Shown in pieces: positions 13,126 through 49,354 of a DNA stretch of 64,000 nt; the first letter of the stretch is position 1, and every line of letters starts with the position of its first letter. The stretch spans positions 87,462,626 to 87,526,625 of the forward strand of contig NC_092048.1 in assembly GCF_003086295.3 (NCBI RefSeq), given 5' to 3'. This DNA is from Arachis hypogaea (lineage: Eukaryota; Streptophyta; Magnoliopsida; Fabales; Fabaceae). Under the pieces are notes generated by a model. It made no database searches. It was not told the DNA's origin and saw only the letters and a program-made list of their open reading frames with translations. The translations under genes and the position numbers were made by a program.

Positions 13126-13162
13126 TTTGCTCGAGGACGAGCAAACTTTTTAAGTTTGGTGT
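13126..13162 (+). other. A1 internal hairpin plus PPT-like module
   Basis: Arms TTTGCTCG/CGAGCAAA enclose loop AGGA (13134-13137), followed by TTTTTAAGTTTGGTGT. It stands about 40 nt before the env-position ATG. A second copy of the module lies at the 3' LTR (14531-14568). Confidence 0.75.
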
Positions 13163-13200
13163 GGAAAAAAGCATTGCTTTTTGTTTTTCTATAATCATTT

Positions 13201-13434
13201 ATGGCACCTAAGGCTAGAGAAACCTCTAGAAAGAGGAAAAGGAAGGCAGTTGCTTCCACCCCCGAGTCATGAGAGATGGAGAGGTTCATCTCAAGGGTCC
13301 ATAGTTTAGTGGTAGAGCATTTGACTGCAGATCAAAGAGCCATGAGGGAGGAGCAACAAAGGCAAGGAAGAGACATAGAGAAGCTCAAGAGCACCATTGG
13401 TTCTTCAATAGGAAGAAGACGCCACCCCTACTAA
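13201..13434 (+). pseudogene. A1 env-position ORF, internally deleted and patched
   Basis: The first residues (MAPKARETSRKRKRK) and the last (MREEQQRQGRDIEKL, then a histidine/arginine-rich end) match the ends of the 382-residue env-position ORF of A2. The roughly 300-residue middle is gone. A tRNA-Cys-like 5' half fills the gap (13295-13337) and the frame to the normal stop is kept. A TGA at 13270-13272 replaces the tryptophan of A2 (codon 24), so it cannot give the full product. Confidence 0.85.
13295..13337 (+). pseudogene. tRNA-Cys(GCA) 5' half captured in A1
   Basis: The sequence follows a tRNA-Cys from position 1 to 43. The acceptor 5' strand is GGGTCCA, the D arm contains AGTGGTAGAGC, and the anticodon arm TTTGA-CTGCAGA-TCAAA has anticodon GCA at 13327-13329. 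Only the D-stem start differs (GTTT for GCTC, two C-to-T changes). There is no T arm or acceptor 3' strand, so it is not a functional tRNA gene. Both edges share short homology with the env ORF (about GGGTCCAT on the left, AGATCAA on the right). Confidence 0.8.
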
Positions 13435-14530
13435 GGTGGACCCATTCCTTAATCTCCTTGTCTATTTGTTTTTCCGTTTTTCAATTTATATACTTTATGT
13501 TTTATCTATGTTTGTATCTTCATTACATGATCATTAGTGTCTAGTGTCCATGTCTTAAAGATATGAATGTCCTATGAATCCATCACTTTTCTTAAATGAA
13601 AAATGTTTTCTGAAAAAGAAAAAGAAGTACATGAATTTTGAATTTTAAAATAGTTTAATTATTTTTATGTGGTGGCAATACTTTTTGTTTTCTGAATGAA
13701 TGCTTGAACAGTGCATATTTTTTAATTTGTTGTTTATGAATGTTAAAATTGTTGGCTCTTGAAAGAATAATGGAAAAGGAAAAATGTTATTGATAATCTG
13801 AAAAATCATAAAAATGATTCTTGAAGCAAGAAAAAGCAGTGAATAGAAAGCTTGAAAAAAAAAGGAAAGCTCGAAAAAAAGAGAGAAATAGAAAAAGCAA
13901 GCAGAAAAGCCAATAGCTCTTTAAACCAAAAGGCAAGAGCAAAAATCCAATAACCCTTTAAACCAAAAGGCAAGGGTAAAAAGGATCCAAGGCTTTGAGA
14001 ATTAATGGATAGGAGGGCCCACAGGAATAAAATCCTGGCCAAAGCGGCTAAACTAAGCTGTCCCTAACCATGTGCTTGTGGCGTGAAGGTGTCAAGCAAG
14101 AAGCTTGAGACTGAGCGGTTAAAGTCGTGGTCCAAAGCAAAAAGAGTGTGCTTAAGAGCTCTGGACACCTCTAACTGGGGACTTTAGCAAAGTTGAGTCA
14201 CAATCTGAAAAGGTTCACCCAGTTATGTGTCTGTGGCATTTATGTATCCGGTGGTAATACTGGAAAACAAAATGCTTAGGGTAACGGCCAAGACTCATAA
14301 AGTAACTGTGTTCAAGAATCAACATACTGAACTAGGAGAATCAATAACACTATCTAAATTCTGAGTTCCTATAGATGCCAATCATTATGAACTTCAAAGG
14401 ATAAAGTGAGATGCCAAAACTGTTCAGAAGCAAAAAGCTAATAGCCCCGCTCATCTAATTAAGATTGATCTTCATAGATGTTTTTGGAATTCATTGTATA
14501 TTCTCTTCTTTTTATCCTACTTTGTTTTTA
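13435..14530 (+). other. A1 3' UTR
   Basis: Untranslated and AT-rich, with an A-rich stretch at about 13830-13930. It resembles the A2 region 32928-34022 and the reverse strand of A0. No gene is seen. Confidence 0.8.
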
Positions 14531-14568
14531 GTTGCTTGGGGACAAGCAACAATTTAAGTTTGGTGTTG
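14531..14568 (+). other. A1 LTR-adjacent hairpin and PPT-like motif
   Basis: Perfect 8-bp arms GTTGCTTG/CAAGCAAC with loop GGGA (14539-14542) are followed by AATTTAAGTTTGGTGTTG ending at the first base before the 3' LTR. This position should hold the polypurine tract that primes plus-strand DNA. Confidence 0.8.
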
Positions 14569-16113
14569 TGATGAGCGGATAATTTATACGCTTTTTGGCA
14601 TTGTTTTTAGGTAGTTTTTAATATGTTTTAGTTATTTTTTATTATATTTTTATTAGTTTTTAAATAAAAATCAAATTTCTGGACTTTACTATGAGTTTGT
14701 GTGTTTTTCTGTGATTTCAGGTAACTTCTGGCTGAAATTGAGGGACCTGAGCAAAAATCTGATTCAGAGGCTGAAAAAGGACTGCAGATGCTGTTGGATT
14801 CTGACCTCCCTGCACTCAAAGTGGATTTTCTAGAGCTACAGAAGTCCAAATGGCGCGCTCTCAATTGTGATGGAAATTAGACATCCAGGGCTTTCCAGTA
14901 ATATATAATAGTCCATACTTTGCCCAAGTTTAGACGACGCAAACTGGTGTTCAACGCCAGTTCTCTACCCTATTCTGGCGTTAAACGCCAGAAACAGGTT
15001 ACAAGTTGGAGTTAAACGCCCAAAACAGGTTACAACCTGGCGTTTAACTCCAGAAACAGTCTAGGCACGTGTAAAGCTCAAGTCTCAGCCCCAGCATACA
15101 CCAAGTGGGCCCCGAAAGTGGATTTCTGTACTATCTATCATAGTTTACTCATTTTCTGTAAACCTAGGTTACTAGTTTAGTATTTAAACAACTTATAGAG
15201 ATTTATTTTGGATCTCATGACATTTTTACACTTCACATTGTATTTCTGACGGCATGAGTCTCTAAACCCCATGGTTGGGAGTGAGGAGCTCTGCTGTGTT
15301 TCGATGAATTAATGCAATTACTACTGTTTTTCATTCAATCATGCTTGTTTCTGTTCTAAGATACTCGCTTGTACTTAATCGTGATGAATGTGATGATCCG
15401 TGACACTCATCATCATTCTCAACCTATGAATGTGTGCCTAACAACCACTTCCGTTCTACCTTAGATTGAGTGTGTATCTCTTAGCCTCTTGGTTCATGAT
15501 CAGAGTCTTCGTGGTATAGGCTAGGATTATTGGCGGCTATTCATGAGATCCGAAAAGTCTAAACCATGTCTGTGATATTTCGGGTAGGATCTGGGAAGGG
15601 GTGGCTATGACGAGCTTCAAACTCGCGAGTGCTGGGCGTAGTGACAGACGCAAAAGGATTACTGAATCCTATTCCAGTATGATCGAGAACCAACAGATGA
15701 TTAGCCGTGCGGTGACAGCGCATTTGGACCATTTTCACTGAGAGGACGGGATGTAGCCATTGACAACGGTGATGCCCAACATACAGCTTGCCATAGAAGG
15801 AGACCTGCGTGCGTGAAGAAGAAGACAGTAGGAAAGCAGAGATTTGGAAGACAGAGCATCTCCAAATCCTCAATCTGTTCTCCATTACTGCATAACAAGT
15901 ACTATTTAATTTATGCTTTTTACTCTTCATAAATGTAATCACTCTTATTATTGATTTCCTGACTAAGAATTACAAAATAACCATAGCTTGCTTCAAGCCG
16001 ACAATCTCCGTGGGATCGACCCTTACTCACGTAAGGTATTACTTGGACGACCCAGTGCACTTGCTGGTTAGTGGTACGAGTTGTGAAAAGTGTGATTTAC
16101 AATTCGTGCACCA
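14569..16113 (+). repeat. A1 3' LTR
   Basis: 1545 bp starting TGATGAGCGGATAATTTATA and ending GTGCACCA, followed by target duplication gtagc. It carries the same palindromic words (about 14945-15055) as the 5' copy. The two LTRs differ at many scattered positions. Confidence 0.95.
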
Positions 16114-21350: not shown

Positions 21351-21387
21351 GAACACCAAACTTAAACTATTTCTTGTCCTCAAGCAA
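21351..21387 (-). other. A0 LTR-adjacent hairpin and PPT-like motif
   Basis: In element sense the hairpin arms TTGCTTG/CAAGAAA (one mismatch) with loop AGGA are followed by TTTAAGTTTGGTGTTC, which touches the 3' LTR. It is a slightly decayed copy of the A1 and A2 module. Confidence 0.7.
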
Positions 21388-21767
21388 CCAAAACAAAGTA
21401 GGACTCAAAAGAAGAGGAAGATATAATAAGTCTTAGAGTTTTCAATGAAGCCCAGTTCCAAACAATTGAATGGGGCTCATAGCTCTTTATTTCTGAACAG
21501 TTTCGGCATCTCACTTTCCTTTAAAGCTCAAAAATATTGACATCTCTTGGAACTAGAATCCGGATTATATTATTGATTCTCTTAGTTTAGCTTTTCTTGA
21601 TCCTTGAACACAGCTTTTCCTTTTGGTGCGTTACACCTTTTTGAGTCTAGCTGTGACTCTAAGCGTTTTGTTTTCTCGTATTACTACCGAATACATAAAC
21701 GCCACAGGCACTTAACTGGGGGAACCCTTTGGATTCGAATTTAGCTTTGCTTAAATTCCCAGAGAGT
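21388..21767 (-). other. A0 3' UTR, left part
   Basis: Untranslated sequence matching the reverse of A1 14160-14530. It is interrupted by B1 and continues at 40398. Confidence 0.8.
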
Positions 21768-21772
21768 GGTAC

Positions 21773-23224
21773 TGATGAGAGAACTTTTGCGTGGTCTAGA
21801 AATTTGCGAATAAATCCTCGTTGCAAGTATAGTTTCTAAACCTTCAAAAGTCCTTTCACACAAACGTTTTGGTTGTCACAAGTAACAAACTCCTAAATAA
21901 ATTGATAACTGAAGTATTTAAACCTCGAGTCGTCTTCTCAAGGAATTGCAGGGAGGTATGTTCTTATTATTGGTTATGAGTTTGTAAATTGGGGGTTTTG
22001 AAAGTAAGGAAGCAGTATGTTGAACAAAAAGAATAAAATAAAATAGTAATAATAAAATAAACTCTTGGAAAGGTATTAGAAATTAGAGGTCCTATCCTAG
22101 CTATCCTTATCAATGATGATGAAAATTGAATCTTAATTCCACTTTGTTAACCTTTACTAAGGCAAAGGAAGGTCAAGGGATTAATTGGTTTGATCTTCGG
22201 ATCCTATTTATTTCCTAAGAAAAGATTGGGATTATTGAAGTTCAATTTAATTAACAAAGATAACAATTATCAATCATGTTTGAGTTTGATAAATCCTGAG
22301 TTACTGATTTCTTAACCAAGACCAAAAGGAGAAAAGTAAATCTACTGGAATAAAAATGTCTTCAGATGGGAATAACAATAATGTAAATAAAAGAAAGCAA
22401 TAATAAACTGAAATACATCAAATAACATTAATTCAAAGAGTAATTTGTAACATAGAAGAATTCATAAATAAAATTGGGAAAATAATAAAAAGAACATTGA
22501 ACCTGGGATTGAGAGTCACTCCTAAAACTAAGAGAAATCCTAAATCCTAATACTAAGAGAGAGGAGAGAACCTCTCTCTCTAAAAACTACATCTAAATCC
22601 TAAAATTGTGAATGTGAAAGCTTGTGTATGAATGGATGCAATCTCTCTACTTTATAGCCTCTAATATGTGTTTTCTGCGCCGAGAACTGGGTCAGAAACA
22701 GCCCAGAATTCGCTGGTTGCGAATTCAAACACGCTGATTTTTGTCACTGCGACGTGGCCGCATGGAGCACGCGTTTTCATCACCTAGCATCAGGGAAACT
22801 ATGGCATATTATATATCAAATCGAAGCTCCGGACGTTAGCTTTCTAACGCAACTAAAACCGCATCATTTGGACCTCTGTAGCTAAAGTTATAGCTGTTTG
22901 AGTGCAAAGAGGTCAGGCTGGACAGCTTAGCAGTTTCTCCAACTTCTTGTATTCCTTCCACTTTTGCATGCTTCCTTTCCATCCTCTAAGCCATTCCTGC
23001 CCTGTAATCTCTAAAATCACTTAACACACATATCAAGGCATCTAATGGTAATAAGAGAGGATTTAAACATATCAAAATTAAGACCAAAGAAGCATGTTTT
23101 CAATCAAAGCACATAATTAGGAAGGTAAATGTGAAACCATGCAAATAGTATAAATAAGTGGGTAAAGAGTTGATAAAAACCACTCAATTGAGCACAAGAT
23201 AAACCATGAAATAGTGGTTTATCA
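21773..23224 (-). repeat. B1 3' LTR
   Basis: 1452 bp, TGATGAGAGAACTTTTGCG...GTGGTTTATCA on the plus strand. It contains a GACGTGGCCGCATGG-type GC word at about 22741, a degenerate form of the words in the B1 UTR. Confidence 0.95.
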
Positions 23225-23262
23225 ACCTCCCCACACTTAAACAATAGCATGTCCTCATGCTA
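23225..23262 (-). other. B1 LTR-adjacent hairpin and polypurine tract
   Basis: In element sense the arms TAGCATG/CATGCTA with loop AGGA are followed by TTTAAGTGTGGGGAGGT, which touches the LTR. GTGGGGAGG is a convincing polypurine tract. It shows that the AAGTTTGGTGTTG of the A elements occupies the same place. Confidence 0.8.
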
Positions 23263-24877
23263 AGCTCAAGAGAAGCTATAAAGATGAAGAGAAATGTAAG
23301 AAAGTACGAAATGCAACCTATCTATATGAATGCAACTACATGCTAAGATGTTTCTATCTACTTGGTTAAAAGTAAATAAGCTCTTCAAGACAAACATAAA
23401 CCAGATTTCACTAATTCAAATCATACAATAAAAGACAAGTAAACTTGTAAGAAGATAGCTCATGAAAGCAGGGAACATAGAATCATGCATTGAACCCTTA
23501 CTGGTAGTGTATATCACTCTAGTCTCTCAAGTGTCTAGGGTCAATCACTCTACTCTTCTCTAATCATGCTTTCTAAACCTTGTTCTTCATCTAACCAATC
23601 AACAAATATTTAATGTACAAATGCAAACATCATGAGGTATTTTCAAGGTTGTAATGGGGCTGAGGTAAAGGTAAGGATATATGTATGGCCAAGTGAGCTA
23701 TAATATGAATCTTTAATTAACCTAAGCTCTCACCTAATATACATATACTCTATATACTTTTAAATTCATGCCTAGCTACCCATAATTCCCACTTTTGTAT
23801 ACTTCCCATACTCATGTACCAAATTTTCTTTAATTTTTATCACATGTGCATTGATCTTTTATTAAACTTAATATTGGGGTAATTTTGTCCCCTTATTTAT
23901 TTATGTTATATATATATTTTTTTCTTTTTTCTCTTTTTTTTTTTTTTGAATCATAAAAGCAAACATAACTTATCAATGCACATGGATTCTCCATTATTTT
24001 TCTATTTTGGTTTTTCATGAGTAGGTTCCCAAATTTCCAATATTCAAATAAATTAGAAACATGATACATTCCCTTATTAACCCATGTTCCCACAGTTTCC
24101 CCACACTTAATTGTTACACAATTCCTATCTTAAGCTAACCAAAGATTCAATTGGGATATTTAATTGTTTTTCTGCTTAAGGCTAGTGATGTGGTAAAATA
24201 CAGAATAAATGGGGATTAAAAGGCTCAAGGTGGCTGACAAGGGTGATTTAAAGGGTAGGCTTATTTGGGATAAGTGAGCTAAAATCAAATAATGGCCTCA
24301 ATTATATGCAAGCATGTAAATACACTAAATATTGGACATATAGAATGGAACAAAGCTAAGATTGCAATTATAGAGAAGAAAACACACAAGAATAAAAATA
24401 TTATGGTTAAATAGTGTAACCATATAAATAAGCTCAAAATCTCACAGGTTGTGTGTTCTTTAGCTCAAAAACCATGTTCCAAATACAACTTCAAACAAGT
24501 TTTAACACATAAAAATTAAATTTTTTTTTTCAATTTAAATTAGTGAAATTTTTCAAAAATGGAGTTACTTTAACCAAGTAGTAACTAAATGCAAACAATC
24601 AACTACACATGCAATCTATTATGCAATGCAACAATGAACTAATTAAGAAAATAAAACATTGGTGTTGAGATAGAAGATAACTAACCCCTGGAAGTCGGTA
24701 TCGACCTCCCCACACTTAAAGATTGCACCGTCCTCGGTACATGCTAAGATGTACAGGTGGACGGCTTGTTCCAACTGATGCTTTTCTCTAAAGATTGTAC
24801 AGATGGACTTGTCTGTCTCCCCATGTAAACATCTTCCGCTTCCCTTCCGGGTGGCTATCCTGAAAGAAAAAGGGAAG
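23263..24877 (-). other. B1 3' UTR, left part
   Basis: AT-rich and untranslated. It resembles B2 47854-49330. It holds an extra PPT-like word near 24096-24110 and a full hairpin-PPT module at 24704-24741. A T-rich run lies at 23920-23947. No gene is seen. Confidence 0.8.
24704..24741 (-). other. B1 internal hairpin plus PPT-like module
   Basis: In element sense the arms TGTACCG/CGGTGCA (one G-U pair) with loop AGGA are followed by TTTAAGTGTGGGGAGG. It is a second copy of the LTR-adjacent module with a wholly different stem. Confidence 0.75.
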
Positions 24878-25482
24878 AAAGGTGATGAGCGGATAATTTA
24901 TACGCTTTTTGACATTGTTTTTAGTATGTTTTTAGTAGGATCTAGTTACTTTTAGGGATGTTTTCATTAGTTTTTATGTTAAATTCACATTTCTGGACTT
25001 TACTATGAGTTTGTGTGTTTTTCTGTGATTTCAGGTATTTTCTGGCTGAAATTGAGGGACTTGAGCAGAAATCAGATTCAGAGGTTGAAAAAGGACTGCT
25101 GATGCTGTTGGATTCTGACCTCCCTGCACTCAAAGTGGATTTTCTGGAGCTACAGAACTCGAAATGGCGCGCTTCCAATTGCGTTGGAAAGTAGACATCC
25201 AGGGCTTTCCAGCAATATATAATAATCCATCCTTTGGCCAAGAATAGACGACGTAAACAGGCGTTCAACGCCAGCCTTCTGCCCAAATCTGGCGTCCAGC
25301 GCCAGAAAAGGATCCAAAACCAGAGTTGAATGCCCAAACTGGCACAGAAACTGGCGTTCAACTCCACAAATGGCCTCTGCACGTGCTACACTTAAGCTCA
25401 GCCCAAACACACACCAAGTGGGCCCCGGAAGTGGATTTATGCATCAATTACTTACTCATGTAAACCCTAGTGACTAGTTTAT

Positions 25483-26620: not shown

Positions 26621-26646
26621 GATCACAATTTCGTGCACCAAGTTTT

Positions 26647-26665: not shown

Positions 26666-28561
26666 TGTTTGAGTTTGGACAACTGACGGCTCATCTTGTT
26701 GCTCAGATTAGGTAATTTTCTTTTCATTTTGTTTTCAAAAAAAAAAATTTCAAAAATATTTCTAAAATTTTCTCTTCTGTTTTCGAAAATAATAAAAATG
26801 TTTTCAAAAAAAAATTTTTTATTCAAAATTTTTAAGAATGAATTCTAGTGTTTCATGAAGCATGTTGAAGCCTGGTTGGCTGTAAAGCCATGTCTATTCC
26901 TTTGGGAATGAGTATGTCAGGCATGTCATATCTGAGTTACATGCTGAAGCTTGGCTGGCCATTGGCCATGTCTAGTGTTTTGGACTGGAGCTTTCTTTGA
27001 AAGCTTGGCTGGCTAGTGAGCCATGTCTAATTCCTGGACTGAAGCTTTAGACTAAGAATGCAAGATTCCTGGAATTCATATTAAAAATTTTGGAATCCTT
27101 ATTTTTCTTTTTCATATAATTTTCGAAAAATATAAAATAAAAATCCAAAAAAATTAGAAAATCATAAAAATCAAAAATATTTTCTGTTTCTTGTTTGAGT
27201 CTTGAGTCACATTATAAGTTTGGTGTCACTTGCATATGCATCTTGCATTTTTTCGAAAATATCATGCATTCATAGTGTTCTTCATGATCTTCAAGTTGTT
27301 CTTGGTAAGTCTTCTTGTTTGATCTTGATGAATTTTTGTTTTGTGTCTTTTCATGTTTATCATATGCATTCTTGAATTCTTAGTGCGTAAGCATTAAAGA
27401 ATTTTAAGTTTGGTGTCTTGCATGTTTTCTTTGCATTAAAAATTTTTCAAAAATATGTTCTTGATGTTCATCATGACATTCATAGTGTTCTTGGTGTTCA
27501 TCTTGACATTCATAGCATTCTTGCATGCATTCATTGTTTTGATCTAAAAATTTCATGCATTGCATATTTTTCTTGTTATTCTCTCTCATCATAAAAATTC
27601 AAAAAAATCAAAAAAATATCTTTCCCTTTTTTTTCTCTCATCAAATTCGAAAATTTGGATTGACTTTTTCAAAAATTTTTAAAAATCAAGTTGTTGCCAA
27701 TGAGTCAAATCAAATTTTCAATTTGAAAATCTTATCTTTTTCAAAATCTTTTTCAAAAATCAAATCTTTTTCAAATTTCTTAGTTATTTTCGAAAATTTC
27801 AAAAATATTTTTCAAAAATCTTTTTCTTATTTTTAATCAAATTTTCGAAAATAACATAAACAATTAATGTTTTGATTCAAAAAATTTGAAGTTTGTTACT
27901 TGCTTGTTAAGAAAGATTCAAAGTTTAAGTTCTAGAATCATATCTTGTGATTTCTTATGAATCAAGTCATTAATTGTGATTTTAAAAATCAAATCTTTTT
28001 TAAAACTAACTTCAATCATATCTTTTCAAAAATATCTTCTTATCTTATCTTTTTCAAAAATATCTTTTCAAAATATCTTCTCTAACCTCCTAACTTCTTA
28101 TCTTTTCAAAATTTGTTTCAACTAACTAACTAACTTTTTGTTTGTTTCTTAACTTTTTCAAAACCACCTAACTAACTCTCTCTCTCTAATTTTCGAAAAT
28201 ATCTTCCCCCTTTTTTCAAAATTTCTTTTTAATTAACTAATTATTTTTATTTTTATTTTTGATTTCAAAAATTTTCGAAAATTTCTAACATTTTTCAAAA
28301 AAAAACCATTTTTCAAAAATCACTAACTCTTTTTCAAAATAATTTTCGAAAATTATCTCTCCCCCATCCTATTCTATTTATTCATTCATATCCTAACATC
28401 TCATCTCACATCTCTTCCATTCGTACAGTTGTGTTTCTTCCTTTACATCACATTCTTTGTCTCCCCCTCTTTTCTTCCACTCACAAAGGGATCCCTATAC
28501 TGTGGTATAAAGGATCTCTATTATTATTATTTTTATTTTTCTGTGCCTTCTTCTTTGTCAT
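26666..28561 (+). other. A2 leader (AT-rich, untranslated)
   Basis: About 1.9 kb without a gene. It has AAGTTTGGTGT at 27216 and 27406, repeats built on GAAGC(T/C)TGGCTGGC..GCCATGTCTA (26870-27030), and a long stretch of iterated TTTTCGAAAA- and TTTTTCAAAAAT-type words (about 27580-28350). Confidence 0.85.
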
Positions 28562-28699: not shown

Positions 28700-30856
28700 A
28701 TGGCAGCCGAAAATAATAATAATGTAAGGAAGATGCTTGGTGACTTTACTGCACCTAATTCCAATTTACATGGAAGAAGCATCTCCATTCCTGCCATTGG
28801 ATCAAACAACTTTGAGCTGAAACCTCAATTAGTTTCTCTGATGCAGCAGAACTCCAAGTTTCATGGACTTCCATCTGAAGATCCTTTTCAGTTCTTAACT
28901 GAATTCTTGCAGATATGTGATACTGTTAAGAATAATGGAGTAGATCCTGAAGTCTACAGGCTCATGCTTTTCCCTTTTGCTGTAAGAGACAGAGCTAGAT
29001 TATGGTTGGATTCTCAACCTAAAGACAGCCTGAACTCTTGGGATAAGCTGGTCACGGCTTTCTTAGCCAAGTACTTTCCTCCTCAAAAGCTGAGCAAGCT
29101 TAGAGCTGATGTTCAAACCTTCAGACAGAAAGAAGGTGAATCTCTCTATGAAGCTTGGGAAAGATACAAACAGTTGACCAAAAAGTGTCCTTCTGACATG
29201 CTTTCAGAATGGACCATCCTGGATATATTCTATGATGGTTTATCTGAGCTATCAAAGATGTCACTGGACACTTCTGCAGGTGGATCCATTCACCTAAAGA
29301 AAACGCCTGCAGAAGCTCAAGAACTCATTGACATGGTTGCTAATAACCAGTTCATGTACACTTCTGAAAGGAATCCTGTGAATAATGGGACGCCTATGAA
29401 GAAGGGAGTTCTTGAAGTTGATACTCTGAATGCCATATTGGCTCAGAACAAAATATTGACTCGGCAAGTCAATATGATCTCTCAGAGTCTGCATGGAATG
29501 CAAGCTGCATCCAACAGTACTCAAGAGGCATCTTCTGAAGAAGAAGCCTATGATCCTGAGAACCCTGCAATAGCAGAGGTAAATTACTTAGGTGAACCTT
29601 ATGGAAACACCTATAACTCAACATGGAGAAATCATCCAAATTTCTCATGGAAGGATCAAAAGCCTCAACAAGGCTTTAATAATGGTGGAAGAAACAGGTT
29701 TAGCAATAGCAAGCCTTTTCCATCATCAACTCAGCAACAGACAGAGAACTCTGAACAAAATGCTTCTAATTTAGCAAATCTAGTCTCTGATCTATCCAAG
29801 GCCACTGTAAGTTTCATGAATGAAACAAGGTCTTCCATTAGAAATTTGGAAGCACAAGTGGGCCAGCTGAGTAAAAGGATCACTGAAATCCCTCCTAGTA
29901 CTCTCCCAAGCAATACAGAAGAGAACCCAAAAGGAGAGTGCAAGGCCATTGACATAAGTGCCATGGCCGAACCTGTGAGGAAAGGAGAGGACGTGAATCC
30001 CAAGGAGGAAGACCTCCTGGGACGTCCAGTGATCAATAAGGAGCTTCCCTCTGGGGAATCAAAGGACTCTGAGGCTCATCTAGAGACTATAGAGATCCCA
30101 TTGAACCTCCTTATGCCCTTCATGAGCTCTGATGAGTATTCCTCTTCTGAAGAGAATGAGGATGTCACTGAAGAGCAAACTGCCAAGTTTCTTGGTGCAA
30201 TCATGAAGCTGAATGCCAAATTGTTTGGCATTGATGCTTGGGAAGTTGAACCTCCCTTGTTCATCAATGAACTAAGTGATCTGGATCAACTGACATTGCC
30301 TCAGAAGAGACAGGATCCTGGAAAGTTCATAATACCCTGTACCATAGGCACCATGATCTTTAAGGCTCTGTGTGACCTTGGTTCAGGAATAAACCTCATG
30401 CCCCTCTCTGTAATAGAGAAACTGGGAGTCTATGGGGTGCAAGCTGCTAAAATCTCACTAGAGATGGCAGACAGCTCAAGAAGACAGGCTTATGGACAAG
30501 TAGAAGATGTATTAGTAAAGGTTGAAGGCCTTTACATACCTACTGATTTCATAGTCCTGGATACTGGAAAGGAAGAGGATAAATCTATCATCCTAGGAAG
30601 ACCTTTCCTGGCCACAGCAAGAGCTGTGATTGATGTTGACAGAGGTGAAATATTCCTTCAATGGAATGAGAACTCCCTTGTAATCAAAACTCAAGGATCT
30701 CCCTCTGCAACCATGGGGAGGAAGCAGGAAAAGCTTCTCTCCAAGCAGAGTCAACCAGAGCCCCCACAGTCAAACTCTAAGTTTGGTGTTGAACTCCCAT
30801 ATCCAAACTCTAAGTTTGGTGTTGGAGAGTCTCAACAAAGCTCTGCACATCTGTGA
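28700..30856 (+). CDS. gag-pro: A2 Gag-protease polyprotein
   Basis: A 718-residue open frame. The capsid-like Gag region (about residues 30-230) contains LMLFPFAVRDRARLWLDSQ, FLAKYFPPQKLSKLR, ESLYEAWERYKQL, LDIFYDGLSELSKMSL and AEAQELIDMVANNQ. Residues about 300-350 are N/Q/S-rich with WRNHPNFSWKDQ. A coiled-coil-like segment follows (NLEAQVGQLSKRITEIP), then an acidic linker. The protease lies at about 545-650 (ALCDLGSGINLMP; IILGRPFLATARAVID). The last 60 residues (TQGSPSATM and two NSKFGV boxes) match the tail after A1 RNase H, which places the pol deletion at the end of the protease. Gag and protease could still form and process particles. No zinc knuckle is visible. Confidence 0.93.
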   Translation: MAAENNNNVRKMLGDFTAPNSNLHGRSISIPAIGSNNFELKPQLVSLMQQNSKFHGLPSEDPFQFLTEFLQICDTVKNNGVDPEVYRLMLFPFAVRDRARLWLDSQPKDSLNSWDKLVTAFLAKYFPPQKLSKLRADVQTFRQKEGESLYEAWERYKQLTKKCPSDMLSEWTILDIFYDGLSELSKMSLDTSAGGSIHLKKTPAEAQELIDMVANNQFMYTSERNPVNNGTPMKKGVLEVDTLNAILAQNKILTRQVNMISQSLHGMQAASNSTQEASSEEEAYDPENPAIAEVNYLGEPYGNTYNSTWRNHPNFSWKDQKPQQGFNNGGRNRFSNSKPFPSSTQQQTENSEQNASNLANLVSDLSKATVSFMNETRSSIRNLEAQVGQLSKRITEIPPSTLPSNTEENPKGECKAIDISAMAEPVRKGEDVNPKEEDLLGRPVINKELPSGESKDSEAHLETIEIPLNLLMPFMSSDEYSSSEENEDVTEEQTAKFLGAIMKLNAKLFGIDAWEVEPPLFINELSDLDQLTLPQKRQDPGKFIIPCTIGTMIFKALCDLGSGINLMPLSVIEKLGVYGVQAAKISLEMADSSRRQAYGQVEDVLVKVEGLYIPTDFIVLDTGKEEDKSIILGRPFLATARAVIDVDRGEIFLQWNENSLVIKTQGSPSATMGRKQEKLLSKQSQPEPPQSNSKFGVELPYPNSKFGVGESQQSSAHL

Positions 30857-31703: not shown

Positions 31704-31740
31704 TATTGCTCGAGGGCGAGCAATATTCTAAGTTTGGTGT
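31704..31740 (+). other. A2 internal hairpin plus PPT-like module
   Basis: Arms TATTGCTCG/CGAGCAATA (9 bp, perfect) with loop AGGG are followed by TTCTAAGTTTGGTGT, about 40 nt before the env-position ATG. The two outer pairs differ from those of A1 but remain paired. Confidence 0.78.
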
Positions 31741-31778: not shown

Positions 31779-32927
31779 ATGGCATCTAAGACCGGAGAAT
31801 CCTTTAGAAGAGGGAAAGGGAAGACAAAAGCTTCCACATCCGAGTCATGGGAGATGGAAAGATTCATCTCCAAAGCCCATCAAGACCACTTCTACGATGT
31901 TGTGGCCAAGAAGAAGGTGATCCCTGAGGTCCCTTTTAAACTCAAAAGAAATGAGTATCCGGAGATCCGACATGAAATTCAAAGAAGAGGTTGGGAAGTT
32001 CTAACAAACCCCATCCAACAAGTCGGCATCCTAATGGTTCAAGAGTTCTATGCCAATGCATGGATCACCAAGAACCATGATCAAAGTAAGAACCCGGATC
32101 CAAAGAACTATGTTACAATGGTTCGGGGGAAATACTTAGATTTTAGTCCGGAAAATGTGAGGTTGGCGTTCAACTTGCCATACATGGAAGAGAACGCACG
32201 CCCCTACACAAGGAGAGTCAACTTTGATCAAAGGTTGGACCAAGTCCTTATGGACATATGTGTAGAAGGAGCTCAATGGAAGATTGACTCCAAAGGCAAG
32301 CCGGTTCAACTAAGAAGATTGGACCTCAAGCCTATAGCTAGAGGATGGTTGGAGTTTATTCAATGCTCAATCATTCCCACTAGCAACCGGTCTGAAGTTA
32401 CTATAGACCGGGCCATCATGATCCATAGCATCATGATTGGAGAAGAGGTGGAAGTTCATGAGATTATACCTCAAGAACTCTACAAGGTGGCTGACAAGTC
32501 CTCCACCATGGCAAGGTTAGCCTTTCCTCACCTCATTTGCCACCTATGCAATTCAGCTGGAATTGACATAGAGGGAGATATCCTCATTAAAGAGGACAAG
32601 CCCATCACTAAGAAAAAGATGGAGCAAGCAAGAGAGCCCAGTCATGGAGCTCAAGAGGCGCAAGAAGCTCATCACCATGAGATTCCGGAAATGCCTCAAA
32701 TGCACTTTCCTCCACAAAACTATTGGGAGCACATCAACACCTCCCTAGAAGAATTGAGTTCCAATATGGGACAACTAAGGGTGGAACATCAAGAGCACTC
32801 CATCATGCTCCATGAAATAAGAGAAGATCAAAAAGCAATGAGGGAGGAGCAACAAAGACAAGGAAGAGACATAGAAGAGCTCAAGGACATCATTGGTTCC
32901 TCAAGAAGGAAACGCCACCATCACTAA
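31779..32927 (+). CDS. A2 env-position ORF (Athila ORF3 / 'putative plant transposon protein' type)
   Basis: A 382-residue open frame from ATG 31779. The N-terminus is basic (MASKTGESFRRGKGK). The central domain (about 35-270) has FYDVVAKKKVIPEVPF, WEVLTNPIQQVGILMVQEFYANAW, RGKYLDFSPENVRLAFNLP, LDLKPIARGWLEFIQ, IIPTSNRSEVTIDRA and ARLAFPHLICHLCNSAGI. A Q/H/E-rich C-terminal coiled coil (about 310-370) and a final RRKRHHH follow. I see no signal peptide or membrane span, so 'envelope' is only positional. The domain resembles the family labelled in plant genomes as putative plant transposon protein; its role is unknown. It is kept open in A2 although pol is gone. Homologues are in A0 (broken) and A1 (deleted). 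Confidence 0.85.
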   Translation: MASKTGESFRRGKGKTKASTSESWEMERFISKAHQDHFYDVVAKKKVIPEVPFKLKRNEYPEIRHEIQRRGWEVLTNPIQQVGILMVQEFYANAWITKNHDQSKNPDPKNYVTMVRGKYLDFSPENVRLAFNLPYMEENARPYTRRVNFDQRLDQVLMDICVEGAQWKIDSKGKPVQLRRLDLKPIARGWLEFIQCSIIPTSNRSEVTIDRAIMIHSIMIGEEVEVHEIIPQELYKVADKSSTMARLAFPHLICHLCNSAGIDIEGDILIKEDKPITKKKMEQAREPSHGAQEAQEAHHHEIPEMPQMHFPPQNYWEHINTSLEELSSNMGQLRVEHQEHSIMLHEIREDQKAMREEQQRQGRDIEELKDIIGSSRRKRHHH

Positions 32928-34022: not shown

Positions 34023-34060
34023 GTTGCTTGGGGACAAGCAACAATTTAAGTTTGGTGTTG
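34023..34060 (+). other. A2 LTR-adjacent hairpin and PPT-like motif
   Basis: Arms GTTGCTTG/CAAGCAAC with loop GGGA are followed by AATTTAAGTTTGGTGTTG next to the 3' LTR. Identical to A1. Confidence 0.82.
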
Positions 34061-35818: not shown

Positions 35819-35823
35819 AAAGG

Positions 35824-37059: not shown

Positions 37060-37077
37060 GGTGGGTTGTCTCCCACC
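37060..37077 (-). other. B1 coding-end hairpin (loop AGACAA)
   Basis: In element sense the arms GGTGGG/CCCACC enclose AGACAA, preceded by AAAAGTGCTA. It is about 100 nt after the ORF-B stop and corresponds in position and loop to the A-element hairpin with another stem. Confidence 0.65.
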
Positions 37078-37174
37078 TAGCACTTTTAGTTAAAGTCCTT
37101 AAGTTGGGCATTTGGTGAGCTCCCTGTTATGGTGGCTTGTGTTTGAACTCATCCAGGAATCTCCACCAATGTTT

Positions 37175-38077: not shown

Positions 38078-38086
38078 GGGGGTTCC

Positions 38087-38676
38087 TTAAGTGTCCGAAC
38101 ATCGGGAAGCTAATTGATTTATCGCTTGCTCCAATTGACGAATGATTGCCTGAAATCGATCCACTGTTTCCTTGAAACGATCCTTTGTCTCTTGATGCAC
38201 TCGGCTTTCATAAATAGGATCATAGTGCTCTTGGATTGATGGATATGGAGATGGTGAATATTGAAGTGGTGGTTCTTGTGAGTAATTGGGTTGGAATTGG
38301 GGTGGTTCTATATATGGTTCATATGGCTCATAAGGTGGTGGTATGGTGGTTGAGGGTTAGGGTCATATGGAGGTGAATGGCGGAAAGGGGCTTGTGAGTT
38401 TGGTGGTCCAAAGTTATGTTGAGGAGAGGGTTCATAGGCATATGGTGGTGGTTGTTGATAATCAAAAGAGCGCTCACCATAGCCATTGCCTTGATATGCA
38501 TCACAGAATGGTTGTTGACAGTCCATTGGAGGTGGTTGTTGCCATGAGGGTTGATCAAATCCTTGTGGCTCCTCCCATCTTTGATTGTTCCAACCTTGAT
38601 GCCTGTTCTCATTGTAATTTCTTCTTCCTGCAACATAATTGTAACCAGACTCATAGCCAAAGGGGTGAGAGTTCAT
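38087..38676 (-). pseudogene. B1 ORF-A, orphan Q/P/Y-rich protein, one frameshift
   Basis: It starts MNSHPFGYESGYNYV and matches B2 ORF-A: HQGWNNQRWEE, QPSWQQ, QQPPPYAYEPSPQHNF, then PPYDPNPQPPY. Near 38330 the frame shifts. In the next frame the matching text continues (YEPYEPYIEPPQF, NYSQEPPLQY) and ends in a coiled-coil-like RFQAIIRQLEQAINQLASR before TAA at 38087. Low-complexity Pro/Gln/Tyr sequence with a terminal helix recalls the C-terminal part of a Gag, but no capsid motif is present. Function unknown. Confidence 0.7.
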
Positions 38677-38920
38677 AGTAGTTAATAAAAATTTAAAAAC
38701 AAAAATAAAAGCAAATTTGAAATTCAAATTTTTGAATTTGAAAATTAAAATTTGAATTTTGAATTTTTAAAATTGAAATTTGAAGATTAAAATTTGAAAT
38801 TTTTTTTTAAATTTGAATTTTAAATTTTGAAAATTGAATTTTTTTTAAAATTGAAAATTGAAAATTGATTTTTTTTTTTTATATTTACAATAACCAATAA
38901 TAAGGCACACGTTTGCAATT
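38677..38920 (-). other. B1 leader, AAATTT/TTTGAAA low-complexity
   Basis: A short leader between primer site and ORF-A, built of iterated AATTTGAAATT words plus T runs. It is similar in style to the A1 leader but far shorter. Confidence 0.8.
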
Positions 38921-38937
38921 CCCCGGCAACGGCGCCA
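38921..38937 (-). other. B1 primer-binding site, tRNA-Asp
   Basis: In element sense TGGCGCCGTTGCCGGGG, 3 nt after the 5' LTR. It is the same primer as the A elements although the coding content is unrelated. Confidence 0.93.
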
Positions 38938-38940
38938 TTT

Positions 38941-40392
38941 TGATGAGAGAACTCTTGCGTGGTCTAGAAATTTGCGGATAAATCCTCGTTGCAAGTATAG
39001 TTTCTAAACCTTCAAAAGTCCTTTCACACAAACGTTTTGGTTGTCACAAGTAACAAACCCCTAAATAAATTGATAACTGAAGTATTTAAACCTCGGGTCG
39101 TCTTCTCAAGAAATTGCAGGGAGGTATGTTCTTATTATTGGTTATGAGTTTGTAAATTGGGGGTTTTGAAAGTAAGGAAGCAGTGTGTTGAACAAAAAGA
39201 ATAAAATAAAATAGTAATAATAAAATAAACTCTTGGCAAGGTATTAGAAATTAGAGGTCCTATCCTAGCTATCCTTATCAATGATGATGAAAATTGAATC
39301 TTAATTCCACTTTGTTAACCTTTACTAAGGCAAAGGAAGGTCAAGGGATTAATTGATTTGATCTTCGGATCCTATTTATTTCCTAAGAAAAGATTGGGAT
39401 TATTAAAGTTCAATTTAATTAACAAAGATAACAATTATCAATCATGTTTGAGTTTGATAACTCCTGAGTTACTGATTTCTTAACCAAGACCAAAATGAGA
39501 AAAGTAAATCTACTGGAATAAAAATGTCTTCAGATGGGAATAACAATAATGTAAATAAAAGAAAGCAATAATAAACTGAAATACCTCAAATAACATTAAT
39601 TCAAAGAGTAATCTGTAACATAGAAGAATTCATAAATAAAATTGGGAAAATAATAAAAAGAACATTGAACCTGGGATTAAGAGTCACTCCTAAAACTAAG
39701 AGAAATCCTAAATCCTAATCCTAAGAGAGAAGAGAGAACCTCTCTCTCTAAAAACTACATCTAAATCCTAAAATTGTGAATGTGAAAACTTGTGTATGAA
39801 TGGATGCAATCTCTCTACTTTATAGCCTCTAATCTGTATTTTCTGGGCCGAGAACTAGGTCAGAAACAGCTCAGAATTCGCTGGTTGCGAATTCAAACAG
39901 GCTGATTTTCGTCACTGCGACGTGGCCGCATGGAGCACGCGTTTGCATCACCTAGCGTCAGAGAAACTATGGTATATTATATATCAAATCGAAGCTCCAG
40001 ACGTTAGCTTTCCAACGCAACTAAAACTGCATCATTTGGACCTCTGTAGCTAAAGTTATAGCCGTTTGAGTGCGAAGAGGTCAGGCTGGACAGCTTAGCA
40101 GTTTCTCCAACTTCTTGTATTCCTTCCACTTTTGCATGCTTCCTTTACATCCTCTAAGCCATTCCTGCCCTGTAATCTCTGAAATTACTTAACACACATA
40201 TCAAGGCATCTAATGGTAATAAGAGAGGATTTAAACATATCAATATTAAGACCAAAGAAGCATGTTTTCAATCAAAGCACATAATTAGGAAGATAAATGT
40301 GAAACCATGCAAATAGTATGAATAAGTGGGTAAAGAGTTGATAAAAACCACTCAATTGAGCACAAGATAAACCATGAAATAGTGGTTTATCA
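38941..40392 (-). repeat. B1 5' LTR
   Basis: 1452 bp, equal in length to the other copy, TGATGAGAGAACTCTTGCG...GTGGTTTATCA on the plus strand, followed by ggtac. Confidence 0.95.
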
Positions 40393-42236: not shown

Positions 42237-42274
42237 AACACCAAACTTAATAACTTTGCTCGTCCTCGAGCAAA
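42237..42274 (-). other. A0 internal hairpin plus PPT-like module
   Basis: In element sense the arms TTTGCTCG/CGAGCAAA with loop AGGA are followed by TATTAAGTTTGGTGTT, about 35 nt before the env-position ATG. Confidence 0.75.
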
Positions 42275-44651: not shown

Positions 44652-45793
44652 TTACAGAGGTAGGTAGGGGCTCAGAACTTCACCCCTAACAGTGAACTTT
44701 CTTCCTGTGCTCTTATGGGTGAGCTCCACATGCTCTAAAAACAGGATCCTGGTCACTGTGTGTGAAACGACTGGATTCTTAGTGAAGACAACTCTCATGC
44801 CAGGTGAGAGGCCTTCGGTGGGATCTTCTTGTCCCTCCAGCCTTTAAGTACCTTCTTCTTAGTACCTTCCTTCTCAGTGCTTGATGATGGTTGCCCAACA
44901 GCAAACTTAGAGTTGGTGTCTGGGGGCTCTGTAAGGCTCTATACTGAAAGGGAAGGCTTAAACACAATGTGCTGCACAATGGTACTGCCTTTGTCAAAGG
45001 GAGACTAGGGGTTAGGGATTTTGAATAAGATACAATCCTCATGCAACCTCAGAACTAGCTCTCCTCTTTCCACATCAATTATAGCCTTAGCAGTGGCTAG
45101 GAAAGGCCTTCCAAGGATGATGGATTCATCTCTGTCCTCCCCATTGTCTAGGATTACAAAATCAGCAGGGATGTAAAGGTCTTCAACCTTCACTAGGACA
45201 TCTTCCGCCATGCCATATGCCCTTTTCAGGGACTTGTCTGCCATCTCCAATGAGATCTTGGCATGCTACATCTCTAGAATTCCTAGCTTCTTCATTACAG
45301 AGAGATGCATGAGGTTGATGCTTGAGCCAAGGTCACATAGTGCCTTCTCAAAGGTGATGGCCCCTATAGTGCAGGGAATAAGGAAGCTTTCGGGATCCGG
45401 TAGCTTGTGAGGGAGCTTCTTCTGGACTAAGGCACTGCACTCTTTGGCCAGTACCACAGGCTCATCTCCCTCCTTCAATGCCTCTGTATGAGAAGAGTTG
45501 GCCTTCAGCTTCCTGAGGATTGCTAGGTACCGAGCAATTCACTCTTCCTTGGACTCCTCGTCCTCGTCTGAAGAAGAGTATTCCTCAGGTTCCTCTATCA
45601 GAAAAAGGGCGTACAAGGTGACATTATCAGTTTTTTCATGAGCTCTGATTTTCTTGAGCTCCTCAATGGCAGGTTCCTCCTTAGGTTCGGTCACCACCTC
45701 CACCATGAGGGTCTTGTACTCTCCCTTTGGATTCACCTCGGTGTTGCTTGGAAGAGTGTTGGAAGGGATATCTGGGATCCTCTTGCTCAGCTG
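44652..45793 (-). pseudogene. A0 Gag end, protease and C-terminal tail, broken
   Basis: This continues the A0 Gag after S3: GQLSKRIPDIPSNTLPSNTE, an acidic linker, LAKECSALVQKKLPHKLPDP, protease ALCDLGSSINLM and IILGRPFLATAKAIID, then a stop. In another frame follow NSKFAVGQPSSS, LKGWRDKK and a tail to VLSPYLPL (stop at 44652). The tail is longer than in A1 and A2. No RT, RNase H or integrase motif lies between protease and tail, so pol is missing as in A2. Confidence 0.85.
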
Positions 45794-46109
45794 ACCAATG
45801 ATAAACCCCAATTTTGTGGTTTATATCGTGTAGAATTTGGGAGATTTTGTCAATATTTCTCACACTTATTCACAATATGCATGGTTTTGTGTTCAGTTCC
45901 TAATATTGCCCCATAATGAAAAACATGCTTATTTTGCCTTAAAATTGCCATATTTTAATCCTCTTCTATTGCCATTCGATGCCGTGATGTATTTGTTGAG
46001 TGATTTCGGGAATTATAGGATAGGAATGGCCTAGAAGAGAGAAAGAAAGCATGTACAAAAGGGAGGAACATGAAGACTTGAAATTTTGGAAAAAGCAGCA
46101 TTGGCGCGC

Positions 46110-47816
46110 TGATGATCGGACTTTTGTTGATATAGAATTTCACAAATGAAAGCTCGTTGTAAAGTATAGTTTCTAGACCAACAATAGTCCTTTCATACAA
46201 AAATATTGGTTGTCACAATTAACAATCCCCAATAAGAATTAACCGAAGTATTAAGACTCCAGGTCGTCTCACAAGGAATTGCAATGAAGTGCTTAATTAT
46301 TGGCTATGGGGATCAAGGGGGGTTTTTGATTGATATTGGGCAAGAAAATAAATGACAAGAGAAAGTAAATCAAACAAGAAATTAAAGAAGACAAGTAATG
46401 AAAAGAGACATTCATGGCAATGGATTGAGATCATAGGCTTTCTATCCTAGTCATGCATGATTAGTTCATCTTATTTAGTTAACTCCAACAAATAGGGAGA
46501 ATGTCAAACAAGATTAACTAATCATGTCACAATAATAAACAAGAATTTATCTCATTACGTCAACTCCAACAAAGAGGGAGAAAGTCTAACGAGACTAGCT
46601 AATCTCAATCTAAAAGTCCTAACCAACTTACTAATTAAACTAGCAAAAGATTAGCGTCAATGGAAATAATCTTCCATAAGTCCTAATCAACTTACTAATT
46701 AAATTAGCAAAAGATTAGCGTCAATGGAAACAATACTAGCTAACAACTCTAGATCACCAACATAAGTTGGGTTTTCATGACTCAAGATTGCCCAATCACT
46801 CTTTCCAAGCCAAGAATGCTCAAAATCTACTCTAACATCCTACCAATCATTTTATCAAACACTTGGTAGGCATAAAAGCAAAGCATAGTAAATTGATGAC
46901 AAGAGTAAAATCTAACAACAATTGAATGTAAGAAATCAACAACAACAATCAAAAGAAACAAGATCTAAATGAATTACTTCAAATTACACTAAAAGAAATT
47001 AGGATGAACAAAAGTAGATCTACAAACAAAGTAGAAGAAAGTAATAACAACAATGGAAGAATGATAAATGTAACAACAAGAAATTAAGAAGAAGGAGTAG
47101 AAGGAAACATGAATTAAAACTTAGATCTAAGAACTAAACTTAATCCTAATCCTAATTCTAGAGAGAAGTGAGAGCTTCTCTCTCTAGAAACTAAGCTAAG
47201 GCATAATGAAACTAGACTATGACTAAGTGTGTTGACTCCTCTTCAATCCTTGGCTTGAATAGCATCAGAAATGAGTTGGGTTGGGCCCAAAGTACTTCAG
47301 AAATCGCTGGGGGCGATTTCATCTTTAGTGGGCCAAGCAGCATCGGCGTGCGCGCGCAAAGTGCGCGTGCGCGCCCCTATACCCGAAGCAACATATGACA
47401 AATTTTATATCATTTCGAAGCCCCAGATGTTAGCTTTCCAACGCAACTGAAACTGCCTCATTTGGACCTTTGTAGCTCAAGTTATGGCCAATTGAGTGCG
47501 TGGAGGTCAGGCTTGACAGCTTTACGGTTCCTTCATTTCTTCATGAGTTCTCCCACTTTGCATGCTTTTCTCCTCACTTCTTCCATCCGATACTTGCCTT
47601 ATGGACCTGAAATCACTCATCAAACACATCAAGGCATCGAATGGAATTAAAGTGAATTAAAATCACCATTTTAGGCCCTAAAAAGCATGTTTTCACATTT
47701 AAGCACAAATCAAGGGAGAATTACAAAACCATGCTATTTCATTGAATAAATGTGAGAAAAGGTGATAAAATCCCCCAAAATAAGCACAAGATAAACCACA
47801 AAATCGGAGTTTATCA
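46110..47816 (-). repeat. B2 3' LTR
   Basis: TGATGATCGGACTTTTGTTG...GGAGTTTATCA on the plus strand. It has an internal tandem of about 60 bp (TAGCAAAAGATTAGCGTCAA occurs twice at 46643-46730) and GTGCGCGCGC words at about 47347-47382. Confidence 0.95.
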
Positions 47817-47853
47817 AATCTCCCCACACTTAAACTAAGCATGTCCTCATGCT
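47817..47853 (-). other. B2 LTR-adjacent hairpin and polypurine tract
   Basis: In element sense the arms AGCATG/CATGCT with loop AGGA are followed by GTTTAAGTGTGGGGAGATT next to the LTR. Confidence 0.78.
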
Positions 47854-49319
47854 AAAATCAAGAGAGAACAGAGGGTATCAACATTTATTCAATGTAAATA
47901 AACTATATGCAACCTAAATTATATGAATGCAACTAAATGCAAAATGATTCTACCTACTTGGTTAAAAATAAATCAATCCTCCAAGAGCACGTATAAACGG
48001 GTAGCGCTAAGGTCATATGACGATTCATGAATCCTACCAATTCAAGTATAAAAATGAAGTTCAAGTGGACTTGCAAGAAGAACGCTGATGAAAGCCGGGA
48101 ATCATGGAGTTGAGCATCGAACCCTCACCGGAAGTGTTTGCACTCTAGTCGCTCAAGTGTATAGGGTCGATTCTCTCAATGCTCTCCTAATCATGCTTTC
48201 CAAGATTCGTTTTTCATCTAACAATCAACATTTATTTCATGCATGCATACAACTATCATGAGGACTTTTCATAGGTTGTAATGGGGCTAGGGTTAAGGTA
48301 AGGATGTATATTTGGTCAAGTGGACTTGAAATTTGCATCTTTGATTAGCCTAAGCTCTCACCTAACACATATAACAACCTATACAATTCTAATACACGAC
48401 CTAGCTACCCATGATTCACTTTTTCACATACTCATGCATTTTCTTTTTTATTACAACTCATATGCATTGATCTTTATTAAACTTCACTTTACTTTGGGGC
48501 ATTTTGTCCCCTTTTTATTTCTTTTCTTTTCTTTTTATTTTTTTTTCTATTTTTTTTTTCAAACTATATAAGAACATCAATGCATAAGGTCTATACATTT
48601 TATCAATACATGAGTATATACCCAATTCCTAATATTTACAACAAAATACAAAATTACCCTTTTTCTCAACCAATGTCCCAAGTTTTCCCACACTTGAATG
48701 ATACACACACACTAGCCTAAGCTAATCAAAGATCCAAATAAAGGACATTTATTGTTTTTCGCTTTAAGGCTTGTAATATGCTAAAATTAAGAACAAAATG
48801 GGTTAATCGTAGGCTCAAATTGGCTAACAATGGATGATAAAAGGTAAGGCTATTTGGGTAAGTGAGCTAATGAAACAATGGCCTCAATCATATAAATGCA
48901 TGAATACACAAAATAATGGACATAGAGAATCAAACAAATCAAAGATTACAATCATAGAAAGAGAACAATGCACACAAGAATGAAAATAAGTGGTTATAAG
49001 ATGTAACCACACAATTAGGCTCAAAACTCACATGCTTGTGTTCTTAGCTCAAAAACCATGTTCCAAAATAAATTCTTCAAGCAAGTTTGTCACAAAAAAT
49101 TTTTTCAAATTGGTAGGGTGCCCTAAAAATAGTTTTCTTGGAAAAGAAATCATCACCCTAACCAAGTAGTCCTAACATAAAAAGAAGTGGTAAAATATGT
49201 ACAACTTCTAACTAACATGCAATCTATCATGCAATGCAACAACTAATCTAACAAGGACAAAAATTAAAAATTGGTGTTGAAAAATGAAGTTGTTACCCAT
49301 GGAGGTCGGTCGGACGACC

Positions 49320-49354
49320 TCTCACACTTAGAAATTTGCACCGTCCTCGGTGCA
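49320..49354 (-). other. B2 internal hairpin plus PPT-like module
   Basis: In element sense the perfect 7-bp arms TGCACCG/CGGTGCA with loop AGGA are followed by TTCTAAGTGTGAGAGG. Confidence 0.75.

Follow-up and report, generated by a model that had tools for sequence, protein, structure and literature searches.

A tetraloop hairpin joined to the terminal and an internal putative polypurine-tract site of Athila-type retrotransposons in peanut

The stretch of DNA analysed here (hereafter the window) comprises 64,000 nucleotides (nt) of Arachis hypogaea (peanut), namely positions 87,462,626 to 87,526,625 of contig NC_092048.1 (assembly GCF_003086295.3). Five long terminal repeat (LTR) retrotransposons of two families, A and B, were delimited in it together with their target-site duplications (TSDs). 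Each carries, next to its 3' LTR and once more inside, a short hairpin with a four-base loop followed by a conserved core, and it is this cassette that we describe. Element A1 occupies 5701-16113 on the plus strand (LTRs 5701-7239 and 14569-16113; TSD GTAGC; LTR pair 95.2% identical). The other four are nested: A0 (24882-35819, plus strand; LTRs 24882-26641 and 34060/34061-35819; TSD AAAGG; 98.9%) lies within B1 (21773-40392, minus strand; LTRs 40392-38941 and 23224-21773; TSD GGTAC; 97.3%), while B1 and B2 (46110-54287, minus strand; LTRs 54287-52581 and 47816-46110; TSD CGCGC; 98.5%) both lie within A2 (19816-59491, minus strand; LTRs 59491-57987 and 21351/21350-19816; TSD GTGAG; 91.4%).

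A domain search of the open reading frames (ORFs) showed that A1 codes for Gag (Retrotrans_gag) plus RVT_1 and RT_RNaseH, A0 for Retrotrans_gag, a weak protease match and a PF20167 ORF, and A2 for Retrotrans_gag and part of PF20167. Gag of the Ty3 type is thus found in all three A elements, and reverse transcriptase with RNase H in A1. An env-like or extra ORF in sense orientation between pol and the 3' LTR is present in A0 and partial in A2. The A0 copy (31779..32927, plus strand) is intact, encodes 383 amino acids (aa) from a TTG and starts 53 nt past the internal hairpin. Its relatives come from Arachis (e.g. A. hypogaea, 85% identity) and Stylosanthes, many being annotated as putative plant transposon protein, and the Athila ORF-1 family was absent among the matches to it. 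The B internal regions measure ∼4.8 kb; the two of four B1/B2 ORFs of at least 150 aa that were scanned gave no Pfam match, and one B ORF has Arachis relatives, mostly unnamed, with one labelled as a gag-domain protein. No reverse transcriptase was detected in these two B ORFs or in either of the two A0 ORFs of at least 150 aa.

The initial annotation had placed hairpins at ten sites, and all ten coordinates were verified in the sequence. In A1, the internal cassette (13126..13162, plus strand) consists of a hairpin at 13126-13145, TTTGCTCG-AGGA-CGAGCAAA, and the core TAAGTTTGGTGT at 13151-13162, and the terminal cassette (14531..14568, plus strand) of a hairpin at 14531-14550, GTTGCTTG-GGGA-CAAGCAAC, and a core from 14555, with the 3' LTR beginning at 14569. 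The internal cassette of A0 (31704..31740, plus strand) has the hairpin TATTGCTCG-AGGG-CGAGCAATA at 31704-31725 and its core from 31729; the terminal one (34023..34060, plus strand) has its hairpin at 34023-34042, its core from 34047 and the TG of the 3' LTR at 34061. In A2, on the minus strand, the internal cassette (42238..42274) carries the hairpin TTTGCTCG-AGGA-CGAGCAAA at 42274-42255 with a core from 42249, and the terminal cassette (21351..21388) a hairpin at 21388-21369 (8-pair register with one mismatch and one G.U), a core from 21364 and the LTR TG at 21350. Both B elements also read on the minus strand. The terminal cassette of B1 (23225..23262) comprises TAGCATG-AGGA-CATGCTA at 23262-23245 and the core TAAGTGTGGGGA from 23239, with the 3' LTR from 23224, and its internal cassette (24707..24741) comprises TGTACCG-AGGA-CGGTGCA at 24741-24724 and a core from 24718. 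The corresponding B2 cassettes are found at 47817..47853 (AGCATG-AGGA-CATGCT at 47853-47838, core from 47832, 3' LTR from 47816) and 49319..49354 (TGCACCG-AGGA-CGGTGCA at 49354-49337, degenerate core TAAGTGTGAGAG from 49330).

The terminal cassette adjoins the 3' LTR, which is the position of the polypurine tract (PPT), in five of five TSD-bounded elements. An internal cassette was likewise found in all five, and in the A family it lies directly 5' of the env-like ORF. The PPT equivalent next to the hairpin is TAAGTTTGGTGTTG in A and TAAGTGTGGGGAGG in B; the B-type primer GTGTGGGGAGG is G-rich with T, and the A-type primer AAGTTTGGTGTTG contains many T.

All ten loops conform to RGGR (AGGA at seven sites, GGGA at the A1 and A0 terminal sites, AGGG at the A0 internal site), and the loop is closed by a G-C pair. 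The pairing of the arms, as described in the initial annotation, is unbroken over 6-9 bp at nine sites (six pairs at the B2 terminal site, one U.G at the B1 internal site); only the A2 terminal site departs from it, lacking a perfect GTTGCTTG/CAAGCAAC pairing because of a broken pair, with only four continuous pairs, or eight if one mismatch and one G.U are allowed. Decay after insertion offers a simple reason for this break, because the A2 LTR pair is the most diverged of the five. The distance to the following motif had been put at 2-12 nt; the motif is indeed present, and the distance is better stated from the loop end to TAAGT, which is 11-13 nt at all ten sites. The TG of the 3' LTR lies 26 nt beyond the loop end in A1, A0 and A2 and 27 nt beyond it in B1 and B2, and the foot of the stem lies 18 nt (A, 8-pair register) or 20 nt (B, 7-pair register) from the boundary between the PPT and U3 (the unique 3' region). 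The true invariant of the cassette is a distance, from loop to TAAGT and from loop to 3' LTR.

On both strands of the window there are 13 RGGR-tetraloop hairpins of at least six pairs, nine of which sit 11-13 nt before TAAGT. With 141 TAAGT pentamers present, ∼0.04 such coincidences are expected by simple arithmetic, a figure that is no formal P value since the sites share ancestry and themselves supplied the pattern. We reject a chance origin of the cassette on these counts. As a control, GAGGAC plus the motif was sought in two scans of a viral collection, which returned 45 and 34 stretches with at most two and at most four loop-flanking pairs, respectively. A third scan, of viral contigs, gave one match that reads as acidic coding sequence and holds no cassette, and a reverse-transcriptase search of viral contigs gave none. 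Scans of bacterial and archaeal genome contigs yielded 0 and 2 matches, both in bacterial records and neither with TAAGTTTGG after the hairpin-like stretch. A known RNA family was also rejected: at the gathering threshold Rfam matched only a plant snoRNA model at 29096-29203, away from every cassette. This snoR71 match (minus strand; score 40.6 against a cut-off of 40) runs antisense within the A0 gag ORF and is probably spurious.

The hairpin arms differ between sites while pairing is retained. Covariation was assessed on the 8 distinct sequences among the 10 sites against 500 shuffles. Paired cells amounted to 92.2% versus 65.0% in shuffles, two-sided changes to 19 cells and the covariation score to 0.772 versus 0.230, and none of the 500 shuffles reached as high a value in any of these three measures. 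Six of the eight stem pairs change on both sides, and sliding the partner by 1-3 columns lowers pairing to 20-42%. These data bear out the proposal of a constant loop and spacing combined with concerted change in the two arms. When the four site classes were arranged in each of their three possible trees, parsimony required 8, 7 and 8 two-sided changes in the six pairs counted; pairs 1 and 8, the A2 terminal mismatch and the B1 U.G state were excluded, and homology of the four classes is presupposed. The covariation evidence is real but small. Selection for the hairpin fold is likely rather than proven, because the independent two-sided changes number just ∼7-8. At the level of primary sequence, the 40-nt window at the terminal cassette ranks near the top of its region in conservation, with as high a value in 46 of 1961 windows (A1/A0), 22 of 991 (A0/A2) and 8 of 1871 (B1/B2).

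The core itself is not confined to the cassettes. Allowing one mismatch, TAAGTTTGGTGT occurs eight times in the internal region of A1, six times in A0 and five times in A2, always in sense orientation and never antisense, while TAAGTGTGGGGA occurs three times in B1 and once in B2, in sense only; the B elements lack the A-type core. Extra copies thus match the primer type of their own family and never the other type. Fourteen copies stand without an RGGR hairpin, so that the motif extends beyond the two hairpin sites of each element. On the plus strand, four lie in the A1 5' leader (7464..8021; at 7464, 7795, 7863 and 8010, the last with one mismatch) and a pair separated by 33 nt lies close to where the A1 polyprotein ORF ends (12485..12529); two lie in the A0 5' leader (27215..27416; at 27215 and 27405) and a pair with the same 33-nt separation at the end of the A0 gag-protease ORF (30778..30822), where it reads in frame as SKFGV. 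On the minus strand there are two in the A2 5' leader (57592..57673; at 57673, with one mismatch, and 57603), one with a mismatch in A2 that is a diverged polyprotein-end copy (44898..44909), and a third B1 core TAAGTGTGGGGA between the two B1 cassettes (24098..24109), which has a decayed B2 counterpart at 48698-48686. Other hairpins of 7-8 pairs occur upstream of 4 of these 14 cores, close to the 15% of random positions. Hairpins mark just two core copies per element, the terminal and one internal, and their absence from all 14 extra copies means that primer sequence and hairpin are separable.

The two families had been taken as unrelated, a view that does not hold since A and B share both the primer-binding site (PBS) and an LTR segment of ∼110 bp. 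The PBS TGGCGCCGTTGCCGGGGA following the 5' LTR, which we take to be the complement of tRNA-Asp, is identical in four of the five elements and mutated in A2. A tRNA-Asp PBS is reported for Diaspora and Calypso in PMC1142308. The LTR segment is clearest between A2 (+232 to +340) and B1 (+309 to +417), with 88 of 111 positions identical (E 1e-16), other pairs being weaker. It lies, for example, at 21120-21000 and 22916-22796 on the minus strand, in LTRs that differ otherwise, and may reflect old common descent or LTR exchange. Athila families without pol that are mobilised in trans are described in PMC2410132, a description that fits the B elements.

We also infer the internal cassette in a second genus, which would be a new finding. 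Stylosanthes scabra has predicted proteins, relatives of the PF20167 ORF, whose reading frame continues upstream through the cassette, so that its presence could be deduced from protein, with the DNA unseen; the cases were picked by pattern or by eye among 233 proteins. Ten proteins show VLEDKH or VHEDKH in one frame, and an eleventh (P0221) reads in another frame. All 11 have 12 nt between loop and core (TAAG), and in 10 of them the codons permit an AGGA loop with seven inner pairs. Being related copies, these proteins count as one further lineage; P0027 and P0138, possible partial cases, were left out.

The reading we prefer, on which our own judgement is evenly balanced, is that the cassette is a plus-strand primer site of Athila-type Ty3/gypsy elements, made up of a PPT and an upstream hairpin acting as structural guide, with a second copy inside the element. 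It is suggested by the terminal copy, which sits at the obligate plus-strand start at a nearly constant distance from the LTR. Also in its favour are the fixed spacing of loop and TAAGT, the covarying stem pairs, the agreement of each family's extra cores with its own primer, the conservation of the terminal window, the Stylosanthes cassettes, and the published extra PPT of Athila4 and Calypso and PPT-linked structure of Ty1/copia elements. During minus-strand synthesis, reverse transcriptase would copy the PPT first and then encounter the hairpin. The hairpin might slow or orient the enzyme while the trailing RNase H cuts the RNA at the PPT/U3 boundary and leaves the primer, and such a guide could be useful because the A-type primer has no clean purine tract. 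In HIV-1 the polymerase-to-RNase H distance is about 18. The internal copy could initiate a second plus-strand segment, as the internal PPTs of Ty1 and lentiviruses do, and the hairpin-less cores may be weaker or vestigial sites. A broader version, which we regard as unlikely, would make the hairpin an Athila-wide structural ruler: covarying and always the same distance ahead of each genuine plus-strand primer, whether internal or terminal, it would direct cutting and render a pure purine tract dispensable, and non-autonomous families would retain hairpin geometry and LTR segment in order to use the enzyme of another family.

Several observations weigh against the primer-site reading. The 14 further cores have no RGGR hairpin at the fixed distance, and the A-type 'PPT' includes pyrimidines. 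The active sites of Ty3 reverse transcriptase lie ∼13 bp apart according to PMC5371799, unlike the 18-20 nt between stem foot and boundary. Two of the five covariation measures were not extreme: the number of two-sided pairs was matched by 67 of 500 shuffles and the number of further pair types was reached by 22 of 500. Moreover, sites of one class share descent. When 80-nt windows were folded, the minimum-energy structure included the hairpin at 8 of the 10 sites, with modest z-scores of -2.23 to +1.21. The internal cassettes are not exceptionally conserved, as many windows score as high (854 of 1311, 772 of 1871, and 1914 of 1961, the last value reflecting poor alignment). Among the Stylosanthes proteins, a single mismatch is unavoidable in P0119, pair 8 alone cannot form in P0195 and P0196, and TAAGG replaces TAAGT in P0156.

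The main rival, which we hold to be somewhat unlikely, is a role in packaging. Gag, through its nucleocapsid, would bind the G-rich tetraloop on its variable stem, the repeated TAAGTTTGGTGT core, or both, and the proximity to the PPT would be incidental or would couple packaging to reverse transcription. A G-rich loop that stays the same while its stem varies is reminiscent of known nucleocapsid-binding stem-loops, and the multi-copy, sense-only, family-specific core is also found in the 5' leader. Retroviral packaging signals usually lie in the 5' leader. Retention of the cassette by the B elements and A0, despite the lack of reverse transcriptase in the ORFs scanned, would suit packaging as well. 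Yet the cores in the leader and at the polyprotein end have no RGGR hairpin, so that a core need not be accompanied by the loop, and the constant 26-27 nt between loop and LTR would be unnecessary for packaging. Should Gag bind the hairpin instead, the cassette would be a candidate Athila packaging signal.

It is less probable still, and in our estimation improbable, that no structure is selected at all. The arms would then have been matched by palindrome correction, through template switching of reverse transcriptase, and loop and spacing would owe their constancy only to shared ancestry and to selection acting on the PPT beside them. Such an origin would be compatible with the small sample of four site classes in five related elements, with the modest predicted stability of the hairpins, with the unremarkable conservation of the internal copies, and with the fact that a two-sided change within a class is clear only for pair 8 of the internal site in A0 versus A1/A2, plus C-G versus U.G in B internal. 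It accounts poorly for an RGGR loop and a loop-TAAGT distance of 11-13 nt that persist at 10 of 10 sites despite differing arms, and for the same geometry deduced in a second genus, as unselected palindromes are expected to drift in length and place. Finally, a control element for translation or splicing, with the internal hairpin in the 5' untranslated region of a subgenomic or spliced env-like mRNA, is very improbable: the A0 ORF does begin shortly past the internal hairpin, TATA-like boxes lie upstream in A0 and A2 and a splice-acceptor-like sequence in B1 and B2, but the identical kind of cassette adjoins the 3' LTR, where no ORF follows, and no sense ORF of at least 100 aa, hence no env-like ORF, was found after the B internal copy.

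Other features were observed around the cassettes. The TATA-like boxes, TATATAAAG and TATAAATA, at 31580 (plus strand, A0) and ∼42447 (minus strand, A2), are followed by pyrimidine-rich sequence and precede the internal cassette and the env-like ORF; judged by sequence, they are a possible internal promoter. No such box was found at the homologous place of A1. The splice-acceptor-like polypyrimidine-AG precedes the B internal hairpin by ∼120 nt, at ∼49479 in B2 and 24860 in B1 (both minus strand), and is conserved between the two. Just 3' of the B cores, a second hairpin is found on the minus strand at 23228-23190, 24707-24680, 47821-47785 and 49320-49295, for example GGAGGTCG-ATAC-CGACTTCC at the B1 internal site and GATAAACCA...TGGTTTATC at the B1 LTR start. 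Its z-scores from simple shuffles were -3.38 and -3.11 in B1 and -2.10 and -1.42 in B2, with -2.25 to -0.01 at the six A sites; the primer may thus lie between two hairpins in B. A weak GGGA-loop hairpin, TTGTTGGGAGGCAA (five pairs including G.U), is found in each of the three A elements close to the polyprotein end (12615 and 30908, plus strand; 44608, minus strand) and is probably a coincidence of coding sequence. Near-palindromic boxes of the type CTGGCGTTNAACGCCAG occur in the interval that separates the polyprotein end from the internal cassette; six are listed in A0, spaced ∼31 nt apart (31053-31225, plus strand), and the same pattern finds two in A1 (12809-12920, plus strand), where more diverged ones are visible. 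They are reminiscent of the palindromic boxes that PMC2829016 reports upstream of env in Sireviruses.

The way in which reverse transcriptase selects a single short RNA segment to prime the plus strand is understood only in part, and for plant env-class retrotransposons with two primer sites a structural handle was lacking. Held at constant distance from the primer in an autonomous-type and a non-autonomous family, the hairpin offers a compact RNA open to testing and a marker by which, in plant genomes, true 3' ends as well as internal primer sites could be located. The lentiviral central PPT and PPT2 of Ty1 likewise represent a second PPT-like site inside the element, the peanut site being known from sequence alone; to our knowledge, neither has an obligatory hairpin. 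Also comparable are Athila4 of Arabidopsis and Calypso of soybean, likewise Athila-type Ty3/gypsy elements. According to PMC2829016, which draws on Wright and Voytas 2002, each has a single additional PPT in the linker that separates pol from the 3' LTR; the article likens it to the internal PPTs of Ty1 and HIV-1. A role like that of a central PPT, as the initial annotation proposed, is hence reasonable, and the idea is already published. The consulted passages of that article mention no hairpin with the extra PPT, whereas the internal PPT of the peanut elements has one. A literature search, which left most subscription papers, supplements and Wright and Voytas 2002 outside its scope, returned no description of a tetraloop hairpin joined to both Athila PPTs, and among the matches seen for the motif AAGTTTGGTGT none was titled on retrotransposons. 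With the extra internal PPT of Athila already known and a hairpin joined to both PPTs not found described, we regard the cassette as a new variant of a known arrangement.

A structural parallel is offered by the Sireviruses, a Ty1/copia group for which PMC2829016 describes multiple PPTs and a conserved inverted repeat at the junction of PPT and 3' LTR, proposed there as a guide for RNase H. Like the peanut elements, Sireviruses carry several identical PPT copies and a conserved inverted repeat at the terminal PPT that is kept in diverged families. Their PPT copies are confined to the linker and the upstream ones have no repeat, whereas the peanut cores extend to the 5' leader and polyprotein end and a hairpin accompanies the internal PPT too. 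The folds differ as well: the Sirevirus PPT sits in the loop, with one arm before it and the other within the LTR, whereas both arms precede the PPT at all ten peanut sites, forming a compact tetraloop hairpin that lies wholly before the primer.

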